The notes beneath the pieces are model-generated. The model was given only the letters and a program-made list of their open reading frames with translations. It was not told where the DNA came from and searched no databases. A stretch of DNA of 64,000 bases from Eunapius fragilis (Eukaryota; Porifera; Demospongiae; Spongillida; Spongillidae): assembly GCA_963681505.1 (NCBI GenBank), contig OY811979.1, positions 251,501 through 315,500 of the forward strand, read 5' to 3'. Of the stretch, positions 26,901 to 35,435 are shown piece after piece (positions within the stretch are counted from its first letter, which is position 1; every line of letters starts with the position of its first letter). The position numbers were made by a program, and so were the translations under genes.

Positions 26901-29900
26901 TTGCAACAAGCTCCTTATGGACAGGCATCCAGCAATACAATGGTCCTCATGAATAACATCACCTGCACTGGATCAGAGCAGTCCCTCCTGGACTGTGCCC
27001 ACAACTCGATAGGAGCTACCACATGCGACCATTCCCATGATGCTGGTGTGAGATGTGGAGGTGAGTGGTAAACCCCAGGCTACATGTATGTGTGTGATGA
27101 TTAAGTAGCTCGTTGGTTTTCACACTGCATGCTTCTACTTATATTTGGATAGTAATTTTACAAAACCTCAGACACACACATTTCAGTCACACAGTGTGTA
27201 CTTGCTATCTGGTTGTCCCTCTGGTTTATGTAGCCCTGTGCAGAGATGGAGACGTAAGATTAGCTCCAGCTGGTACTAACCAGAACTTCTACCTTGGACG
27301 TTCCCAATTGACTCAATTTGACTACACCAATATGTACCTAAGCCGTGGCAGAGTGGAGGTGTGCATCAATGGAAGCTATGGCTCTGTGTGCAGCAGTCCT
27401 ATATGGGACAACAATGGGGCCTCTGCTGTATGCAAGCAGCTAGGGTTTTCCTCTTACGGTGAGGAATAAGATGTTGTACAAGTGTCAAAACTAAGTTTTC
27501 ACTTACATCTTCCTCTCCTACTCCATCTCTCTCCACTTTGTACCCAGGTGCTGTACCTGACACGAGGTCATTTTCAGATGAGCAGCGACTGCCAACATTT
27601 GTCTGCACAGGTAGTGGACTGAATGCACGTCAATGTTCCCTCAACAGTGGTACATGTGGTCTCTATTCTGGTGTTGTATGCCAAGGTAAAACCTGTGGGA
27701 GTTTTAAGCTTTTTGAAACATATGGATTTGTACACATTCTACCCTCATGGGACAGACCTGACCAGTACCAATGCTGCCAACTGCTCTGATGGAGACATCA
27801 GGTTGGCCCAAGGTCCCAACGTGAGGGAAGGCAGAGTGGAGATTTGCCTCAACAATGCCTGGGGAACGGTCTGTCAGCAGCTGGGGAGTTTTACTCCTAC
27901 CAGTGCTCGGGTGGTGTGCAGACAGCTCTCCTTTTCTGATAGTGAATCTGGTGAGACATTAAAGTACTGTGGGTTCTGGACTTGTTAGTTCAATTGCTTC
28001 CTTTTACCTGGCAGACTCAAGAGCGTTGCCTGCTAATTCTGTTCTTCCCGGAAATGGACCTGTATTTCTGAGTGATGTTTTCTGCTCTGAGACAGATCAG
28101 ACTCTTGCATCATGCAATGCTCTTCATCTTCGCGGTATCAGCTCCTGCACACATGGCAGTGATGTTGGTGTGCATTGTGAGGGTAAGGTGCTATGTCAGG
28201 TGATGTTGTTTGAAGGTAAAGTGTTACATCACATGATGTTGGTGTGAGGGTAAAGTTCTATTTGTATATGAAGGTGATGTATGTATTTATTGGAAGTTTC
28301 ACTAGAACAATAGGATTTGACTCTTGCTATGAATATAACAAGACTCCTGATGATCGGATCATTTAGCTAGTTGTTGTAATCGAATGAGAAGTCGAAAGTG
28401 TGTAATTTTGTCAATTTGTTTTATGCCGTGGTTGTAGAGAACAAAAGGGTACTGCCCGTCCTCATACCCAGTCCCAGAATAATCCTCCTCCTTGACCACG
28501 CATAACTCGGGATAGGAACACATTTAAATAAAATTTCACCAATAACTTCAGAATTGGCTGGAAGAGTGCCTACTGTGATCAAATAGTCGGTGGTATATTT
28601 TGGAATTGTATTGTTAGATTTGGGCCATACTAAACATTACTGGTTTGGTATACACTTGACAAGTTTAGAATTGTCGATACCAAACCAGAAAACTACAGGA
28701 GCAGTGGCAAATGATTTAACAATCAACTATACAGTCAGTGTAAGCCGTATAATTAGATATCTTGGTATCCAGATCCCCATGGACATCTAGATCTACAGAT
28801 TACATCACTTGCTACGTGCTTGGGGGGGGAGCAGCGATACATAATATTCACAGTGATTTCAGTGATTTGGGTGTGAAACAAGTAACTAAGAACATTCTAC
28901 ATTGTATGTAAGAAAGTTGGTGGTATATAGGATTTGAAGGCAATAGTAAAAGCAAGGAAACAAGATCTTATCAGAGAGGAAAATGTAATAGTCCTATAAA
29001 TGTGCTGTTTGTGTCCTAAATATAGGACTATTACATTTTCCCGTCTGATAAGACCTCGTTTCCTTGCTTTTTACACCACCAATTGCCTTCAAATCCTATG
29101 TACCACCAACTTTTTCATAGGTAATGTTTTTAGTTACTTGTTATATAGCAATCCGTTTATGTATACACGCACTTTCTAATGGATACAGTCTATTCTTTAA
29201 ACTCGTAATTATTTCCCTCCACCGTTTTCCACCTCACCTCTCCTGATACTCTTTGTAGCACGTTGTCCAGTCAACAGCACAGCTTCCATCAGAGGTTTCT
29301 ACAATTGGAACACCATATCTGCTGAAAATGTGTCTGTCCAAGCGTGCACATACAAAGACGCAACTGGCTTGGGAGGTGTGGCCACGAGGCGGTGTAATGA
29401 GTATGGCCGCTGGGATGAGGTCAACCTCACCCAGTGCCTGACAATGGTGCAGTCCACACTACTGAGTCTTAGTGCTGTAAGAGCTTTACATCATCTGGTG
29501 TGCATTGCCATGTGATAGCTGGTTGGTACCTGACAGATATCAATAACTGATGGTAATATTGCCGAGGTGACCAGCACACTGAACTCCACTCTATACTCTG
29601 CTAACACTGAGGACCAAACTGAAGACAACGTGAGGTTGGTTGCAACCATATTTACAAATTTTGCAAGTGCATCAGTCAATTATAGTGGAAAGGTGAGTGA
29701 TCTGCTTTATCCATCCATTGCTACCATGGCAACAATCTCCTCCTTCCATAGCCTGTTGAGTGTATTGTCTTTAGTCTTGCTGCCCTCTGGAACTGGCCTC
29801 TAGGCAATCGCTCAGCAAAGTACTGCATTGGCTGTCATTCACCCCCTTCTCTCTATGACTCCCTTGTATTATTATTGTTAGTTTGGTGATGAACCTCAAC

Positions 29901-35435: not shown

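Follow-up and report, generated by a model that had tools for sequence, protein, structure and literature searches.

In a 64,000-nucleotide stretch of the genome of the demosponge Eunapius fragilis (GenBank assembly GCA_963681505.1, contig OY811979.1, positions 251,501 to 315,500 of the forward strand; hereafter the window, numbered from its first letter) we describe two genes, A and B, each encoding an adhesion G protein-coupled receptor (GPCR) in which two HRM-GAIN-GPS modules precede a single seven-transmembrane (7TM) domain. At the sequence level one polypeptide combines a putative signal peptide, an array of NIDO, EGF and SRCR domains, both modules, an Ig-like stretch, a linker and the 7TM domain. 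It is likely, in our assessment, that this giant adhesion GPCR is cut and activated only at its second GPS (GPS2), and that the distal GAIN (GAIN1) serves as an uncut structural or sensing module under selection.

Two HRM-GAIN-GPS modules before one 7TM domain

From HRM1 onward gene A consists of 25 exons on the forward strand (29259-35435), which splice signals and reading frame join into a single open frame of 1414 residues in the order HRM1-GAIN1-GPS1, Ig-like stretch, linker, HRM2-GAIN2-GPS2 and seven helices. All 25 acceptors are AG and 23 of the 24 donors are GT, the remaining donor (after 33142) being GC. Pfam finds in the protein two GPS stretches (30565-30681 and 33812-33913) and one 7tm_2 domain (E 1.7e-35), with GPS2 directly before the first transmembrane helix (TM1): GPS2 ends at 33916 and the TM1 exon starts at 33979. 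Upstream of 29259 a rough gene finder places 47 further exons back to 7627, nearly all of phase 1-1, a list that is approximate. The start codon and a signal-peptide-like stretch lie at 7571, so that the whole gene extends over some 28 kb and encodes roughly 4,450 residues.

Gene B lies on the minus strand (start 59183, stop 37038) and repeats the chain of gene A from HRM1 to the 7TM domain (43294 to 37038), with Pfam GPS matches at 41581-41721 and 38415-38516. Two further copies elsewhere in the genome, C (on contig 9, which also contains the window) and D (on contig 8), carry the chain from HRM1 to the 7TM domain as in gene B. Exons L1 and L2 of gene A are one exon in B, C and D, and a GC-donor exon is found in the G2c-G2d region of all four. 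A preliminary description, made from the letters of the window alone, had proposed two complete modules ahead of one set of helices in A and B, and this is borne out by the open frame, the consensus splicing and the Pfam result of two GPS and one 7tm_2; its coordinates, its GAIN exon lengths (156/165, 68/77, 97/103, 40/52 nt, then a long exon, here 209/332 nt) and its intron phases (0-2-0-1-0) are exact.

Distribution in the genome and in other sponges

A Pfam search of the whole 219 Mb genome returned 62 GPS matches, among them the two in gene A and the two in gene B. For 58 of the 62 a 7tm_2 match lies no more than 2.6 kb downstream among the matches listed, and the remaining four are the GPS1 of A, B, C and D; this count drew on about 65 listed 7tm_2 matches, beyond which weak ones may lie. 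Among the same matches none falls between the two GPS at any of the four loci. When the genome was queried with module 1 and with the linker-HRM2 region, only loci A to D were recovered, plus one match in C17 at E 0.009. The C17 cluster was considered as another double-GPS group and rejected, its three GPS being 8-13 kb apart and each having its own 7TM domain downstream. We also observed, on contigs 1-6 and 10, a large and often clustered family of single-GAIN receptors with the order linker-HRM-GAIN-GPS-7TM (141 exon matches), and, on contigs 3, 5, 18 and 19, ten GPS matches of another receptor group without the C-x-C pattern that keep HLT and the agonist Leu.

The nearest relatives found are proteins with the prefix Em, which we take to stand for the freshwater sponge Ephydatia muelleri. 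Three of these models have two GPS and one 7tm_2: Em0151g10a (P0012, 3577 aa), Em0023g296a (P0013, 3374 aa) and Em0023g301a (P0001, 1078 aa), the last being 97% identical to P0013 where they overlap. P0012 shows 72% identity from linker to 7TM; both P0012 and P0013 carry SRCR and EGF arrays by Pfam, and P0013 also NIDO. A fourth model, P0014, spans the same region, omits G1e-GPS1-L1 and ends before GPS2; its HRM1 reaches Pfam HRM at E 3.4e-5, under the cut-off. In Geodia barretti, which belongs to another demosponge order, the partial model P0004 holds a GPS1, EGF domains where gene A has Ig, a linker, HRM2 (Pfam HRM E 0.0023), GAIN2, GPS2 and the first part of a 7TM domain. The Geodia linker matches double-GAIN linkers (E 8.6e-7 for P0013, 1.5e-5 for A) and not those of single receptors (E 0.31 and above), in a comparison of 14 sequences. 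Four loci in the genome and models in two other sponge species make the layout more than chance, and an assembly artefact was rejected, as the four loci lie on two contigs and two other species have the layout as well. The Ephydatia models also support, without proving, a single transcript.

Homology of the first module

A profile comparison of module 1 with module 2 (three rows against three) aligned them from HRM to GPS with a probability of 97.6, E 2.9e-12 and 28% identity, supporting homology of the two modules from end to end. Against single-GAIN receptors module 1 scored E 3.5e-20 and module 2 E 1.6e-36. A profile of seven module-1 sequences including Geodia matched three GAIN domains of known structure, that of ADGRF1 at E 1.3e-8, that of ADGRG1 at 2.8e-8 and, almost from end to end, that of ADGRG6 at 5.4e-6; with Geodia left out, ADGRF1 was the only solved GAIN matched (E 1.4e-4). 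These matches suggest a GAIN fold (helical subdomain A, beta subdomain B) for region 1, but the Pfam GAIN model (PF16489) matched neither module. HRM2 of gene A gave no Pfam HRM match at E up to 5, and the Ig stretch of gene A gave no Pfam Ig match (for gene B see Table 1).

Loss of the cleavage nucleophile and agonist Leu in GPS1

According to the papers cited, GAIN self-cleavage follows the consensus His-Leu/Ile-Ser/Thr, in which P-2 is His and P+1 is Ser or Thr (PMC13197933, PMC13062082), the conserved tethered-agonist Leu is position S14.50 (PMC13197933, PMC11697300), and a Phe at S10.49 orients the His in cleaving receptors (PMC13062082). These position names were assigned to the sponge sequences by eye. 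Six of the seven GPS1 (A, B, C, D, P0012 and P0013) have Gly at P+1 and so lack the nucleophile of a self-cleaving GAIN, whereas Geodia has Thr; in P0013 the His is also replaced, by Lys. The agonist Leu is lost in all seven, where Tyr (five), Arg (one) or Gln (one) takes its place. The preliminary description had missed both losses. In a control across the genome, 45 of the 62 GPS matches could be read: the four GPS1s have HLG with Tyr, and all 41 others have HLT with Leu. In ten of these 41 the first Cys pair of the motif is absent, and their reading as THLTSFAVL was made by eye. GPS2 of A, B, C and D has HLT and Leu at S14.50, as does the 7TM-adjoining GPS of P0012, P0013, P0004 and the single-GAIN Ephydatia receptor P0015. 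Every distal GPS examined has therefore lost the agonist Leu, and in this genome and in Ephydatia the distal GPS lacks the nucleophile as well.

Other features of the motif are retained in GPS1, namely the GPS Cys in all seven and both Trp in six (Geodia has Phe for the first). The S10.49 Phe is Ser or Thr in five of the seven; this change carries little weight, because nine of ten single receptors with HLT kept share Ser/Thr there (10 of the 14 single-receptor models were used for the residue table).

Selection, proposed mechanism and alternative readings

Ratios of nonsynonymous to synonymous substitution (dN/dS, Nei-Gojobori) over GPS1 were 0.26 (A-B), 0.24 (B-C), 0.11 (B-D), 0.18 (C-D) and 0.28 (A-D), and over GPS2, for the same five pairs in order, 0.43, 0.16, 0.17, 0.15 and 0.17. 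With values of 0.11-0.28 in all five pairs computed, GPS1 is under purifying selection despite its lost chemistry, and the HRM1 end is loosely held. Over G1b-G1e the pairs A-B, B-C, B-D, C-D and A-D gave 0.51, 1.76, 0.42, 0.52 and 0.56.

Self-cleavage would take place once, at GPS2, leaving the SRCR/EGF array and GAIN1 in one N-terminal fragment, and the tethered agonist of GPS2 would act on the 7TM domain as in other adhesion GPCRs. With Gly in place of the nucleophile and another residue in place of the agonist Leu, GAIN1 is predicted to be uncut, covalently closed and unable to serve as an agonist. It could form a stiff, disulphide-bonded spacer between the SRCR/EGF array and the Ig-HRM2-GAIN2 portion that passes on force or binds a partner. 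Several points weigh against this picture. The spacer role is something we infer; the B-C ratio of 1.76 over G1b-G1e is high, on 13 changes only, and HRM1 with G1a is weakly constrained throughout (0.75-0.95). In B, C and D a Thr directly follows the GPS1 Gly. The Ephydatia models are AUGUSTUS predictions for which RNA-seq was used in training, as described in a passage of PMC7385117; P0012 omits G1d-G1e and P0014 the exons named above, both in frame, which may mean that the module is optional by alternative splicing or that the models are in error.

Among the alternatives, decay fares best and is nevertheless unlikely: GAIN1 would then be a functionless relic of a receptor that had been fused or duplicated, as its lost catalytic and agonist residues, the divergence of module 1 between A and B (dN 0.52 over G1b-G1e) and the weakly constrained HRM1 and G1a might lead one to expect. 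A relic sits poorly, however, with the low dN/dS of GPS1, with reading frames and splice sites kept in four paralogues, with the presence of module 1 in Ephydatia as well, and with the retained Cys and Trp of the GPS1 motif.

Slightly more doubtful is that GAIN1 is cut after all, whether at a shifted or non-canonical site or in Geodia-like members, which would make the receptor two serial fuses with three fragments held non-covalently. A shifted cut is conceivable for B, C and D on account of the Thr one residue past the Gly, but gene A, P0012 and P0013 have no Ser/Thr at P+1 or P+2, and P0013 has lost the His besides. In Geodia GAIN1 may still be cut, as its GPS1 keeps both the canonical His-Leu-Thr and the His-positioning Phe, although the entry with this cleavable-looking GPS1 is a partial gene model.

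That each locus makes two proteins, one secreted, with the SRCR/EGF array and an end just past GPS1, and the other a short receptor starting in the Ig or HRM2 region, is improbable even though a GPS is the expected end of a GAIN-containing ectodomain and in-frame skipping of GAIN1 exon sets is seen in two Ephydatia models, for the gaps past the GPS1 exon (62 bases in A, 108 in B) are too small for a gene end and start, the phases join across GPS1 in four loci, and models in two species run through; separate genes split at this point were rejected on the same grounds.

The reading of a receptor cut at GPS2 only, with a selected but uncut GAIN1, matters because models of adhesion GPCR activation assume one GAIN that is both self-cutting and agonist-hiding. 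A distal GAIN under selection that has neither the cutting residue nor the agonist Leu would be a natural experiment on what selection keeps in this domain, and a purely mechanical or ligand-binding role of GAIN would become directly testable. Tentatively, an old demosponge double-GAIN class could have begun with two working GAINs, as Geodia would still have, the upper joint having later been welded shut, through loss of its nucleophile, in the lineage leading to this genome and to Ephydatia, where it was retained for a mechanical or sensing role. If true, there would have been two self-cut joints in series on one ectodomain, only the lower one with an agonist, and the Geodia-type joint pair would be a new layout for force-sensing receptors.

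Origin of the second module

The match of GAIN exons between the modules had been read in the preliminary description as a sign that the whole module was duplicated. The match does not establish this: the layout is common to single-GAIN receptors, which module 1 resembles no less closely than it does module 2. In spliced alignments of 14 single-GAIN receptor genes the GAIN exons measure 168 and 77 nt in all 14 and 103 nt in 11, with the same phases as both modules except in one gene; two of the 14 models (C4:10210k and C3:12471k) hold one stop each. Introns at alignment columns 95, 153, 178 and 214 are found in modules 1 and 2 and in all ten single receptors counted (s6_8380 was left out), within 4 columns and in the same phases, and the intron at column 366/372 in both modules and seven of the ten. 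As these introns are common to both modules and the single receptors, the exon layout is inherited from the family, and matching exon lengths and phases were rejected as proof of internal duplication. Two introns differ in their distribution: a phase-1 intron at columns 253/259 (after the 40/52-nt exon) occurs in modules 1 and 2 and in none of the ten single receptors, mildly favouring internal duplication, whereas a phase-1 intron inside the GPS (column 411) occurs in module 2 and all ten single receptors and not in module 1, mildly disfavouring it.

Profile scores were 90 for module 1 against module 2, 142 for module 1 against single receptors and 256 for module 2 against single receptors; by this measure each module stands nearer to the single receptors than to the other module. 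In a 26-row tree, from which the partial rows M1_Em12, M1_Em13, M1_Em14, M1_Gb1 and X_Ec7 of the original 31 were left out, the four module-1 rows formed one clade and the six module-2 rows from this genome and Ephydatia another, each with support of 100/100, and the 11 single-receptor rows formed a third with 99/100. The approximately unbiased (AU) test on this tree gave p 0.127 for modules 1 and 2 as one clade and p 0.447 for module 2 with the single receptors. In a GAIN-B tree (without M1_Em12 and M1_Em14) the Geodia GAIN1 stood apart from the other GAIN1, but their forced grouping was not rejected (AU p 0.295), and in phmmer comparisons several other GAINs gave higher scores with the Geodia GAIN1 than any module-1 row did. 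It is possible that the second module arose by internal duplication with fast change of module 1, or by fusion with another receptor of the family; a single origin of the Geodia layout and the others is likewise possible.

Divergence of genes A and B and other features of the window

Genes A and B lie tail to tail, and their identity, compared over 29800-33548 against 38400-43300 (minus), is patchy: it reaches 95.6% over 31714-33548, with almost no DNA match over 29800-31225 (GAIN1 to Ig). From GPS1 into the Ig stretch gene A shares 62% of 157 residues with Ephydatia P0012 and 53% of 116 with gene B, and gene B shares 56% of 116 with P0012 and 41% of 94 with P0013. The A-type of this region seems to predate the divergence from Ephydatia, with later homogenisation, apparently, of A and B elsewhere along their length, and the patchwork suggests old paralogues with gene conversion. 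The idea that each module-1 type, A and B, has an Ephydatia counterpart of its own was rejected, as only gene A pairs with one and B is no nearer to P0013 than to P0012.

The coordinates of both genes are collected in Table 1. A run of EGF/SRCR exons present in A (about residues 741-1477 of the A model) is apparently missing from gene B, the corresponding place in B being 49916-51749 (minus); over this block the upstream alignment of B runs through non-homologous DNA with 23 stops and was not used as protein.

Table 1. Positions of the parts of genes A and B in the window and the basis of each assignment.
Feature	Position	Strand	Basis or remark
Gene A N-terminal part	7571..28182	+	start codon; stretch resembling a signal peptide (by eye); NIDO-like region; numerous exons for EGF and SRCR
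Gene A HRM1, one exon	29259..29476	+	Pfam HRM E 0.038, under cut-off
Gene A GAIN1, five exons (156/68/97/40/209 nt)	29537..30364	+	exon chain, profile comparison
Gene A GPS1	30550..30687	+	Pfam 40.8 bits; Gly at Ser/Thr site, Tyr at agonist Leu site
Gene A Ig-like stretch, three exons	30750..31418	+	starts 62 bases past GPS1 exon
Gene A linker, three exons	31475..32067	+	intron phases match single-GAIN receptors; closest in sequence to the double receptors of Ephydatia and Geodia
Gene A HRM2, one exon	32127..32404	+	no separate Pfam match; alignment with HRM2 of Geodia
Gene A GAIN2, five exons (165/77/103/52/332 nt)	32467..33543	+	exon chain, profile comparison
Gene A GPS2, two exons (33647-33764, 33813-33916)	33647..33916	+	canonical motif
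Gene A 7TM and cytoplasmic tail	33979..35435	+	stop at 35435; Pfam 7tm_2
Gene B N-terminal part	43571..59183	-	start 59183, signal-peptide-like stretch (by eye), NIDO/EGF/SRCR exons
Gene B HRM1	43077..43294	-	Pfam HRM E 0.0011, under cut-off
Gene B GAIN1, five exons	42001..43016	-	exon chain
Gene B GPS1	41575..41733	-	nucleophile lost
Gene B Ig-like exons	41034..41466	-	start 108 bases past GPS1 exon; Ig_3 E 0.029
Gene B linker exons	40492..40968	-	exon chain
Gene B HRM2	40154..40431	-	exon chain
Gene B GAIN2, five exons	39006..40088	-	exon chain
Gene B GPS2	38412..38681	-	exon chain, residue reading
Gene B 7TM and tail	37038..38357	-	exon chain

Several repeats accompany the two genes. Long CT/AG dinucleotide runs of about 76 copies (26484-26635) and about 80 copies (45104-45262) occupy the matching place in A and B. 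The intron just before HRM1 of gene A holds a long imperfect hairpin (28899-29127) with 51-nt arms that are 92% complementary and 46-nt outer arms, and similar sequence near 49.5-49.9 kb is suggestive of a MITE-like (miniature inverted-repeat transposable) element. Between linker exons L4 and L5 lies an intronic minisatellite (31593-31766) of 36-bp units, with about four copies in A and several more matches in C and D. Finally, an open frame at 4395-4871, which resembles reverse transcriptase weakly (RVT_1 E 8.8e-5, under the cut-off), is probably an old retroelement.

Comparison with known systems

Adhesion GPCRs typically have one GAIN and GPS, as the preliminary description had stated. In the literature searched (which left preprints and most subscription papers outside) no adhesion GPCR turned up that was described as having two GAIN or two GPS domains. 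Likewise no case of two, a second or multiple GAIN appears in the portions consulted of a 2026 review (PMC13197933), PMC11697300 and PMC12716839. The receptors described here have the hallmarks of the class, with a 7tm_2 type domain, a GAIN/GPS directly before TM1, and the cleavage motif and agonist at the 7TM-adjoining GPS; they depart from the usual, though not strictly defining, count of one GAIN per receptor, since A, P0001, P0004, P0012 and P0013 have two GPS. Secretin GPCRs, with an HRM and no GPS/GAIN before the 7TM domain, are a different case, as a GPS adjoins the 7TM domain in gene A.

A PKD1-like protein has eleven transmembrane helices and a PLAT domain. Gene A has a 7tm_2 match and, in its 1414 residues from HRM1 on, no Pfam PLAT match at E up to 1. 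Polycystin-1 and PKD1-like proteins, the other known GAIN carriers, resemble A and B in holding the GAIN within a very large ectodomain, as set out in part of PMC11697300; unlike theirs, the membrane part of A and B is a 7tm_2 receptor.

Among sponges, Krishnan et al. (PMC4302439) described adhesion GPCRs of Amphimedon queenslandica with 7tm_2 and GPS, and the text compared reports at least eight members with HRM, two with SRCR repeats (Aq712029 and Aq715659) and 28 of 40 with a GPS. These receptors are like A and B in combining 7tm_2, GPS, HRM and SRCR, and unlike them in that no member is stated to have two GPS as far as the text was compared, the architecture figure standing outside that comparison, so that some member may have a second GPS. 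Single-GAIN receptors, both those found in this genome and P0015 of Ephydatia (EMCRGX_G013970), share the order linker-HRM-GAIN-GPS-7TM and nearly the intron positions of module 2. P0015 differs from A and B in having one GAIN only, with FN3 and EGF instead of the SRCR array and GAIN1.

A parallel to GAIN1 itself is offered by the naturally uncleaved vertebrate receptors ADGRB2 and ADGRB3. There the uncleaved GAIN is the sole GAIN and still lies next to the 7TM domain. Like the prediction for GAIN1, these receptors keep the GAIN fold without self-cleavage, according to a section of PMC13062082. In A and B, unlike ADGRB2 and ADGRB3, the GAIN predicted to be uncut is an additional and distal one, and its agonist Leu is lost as well.

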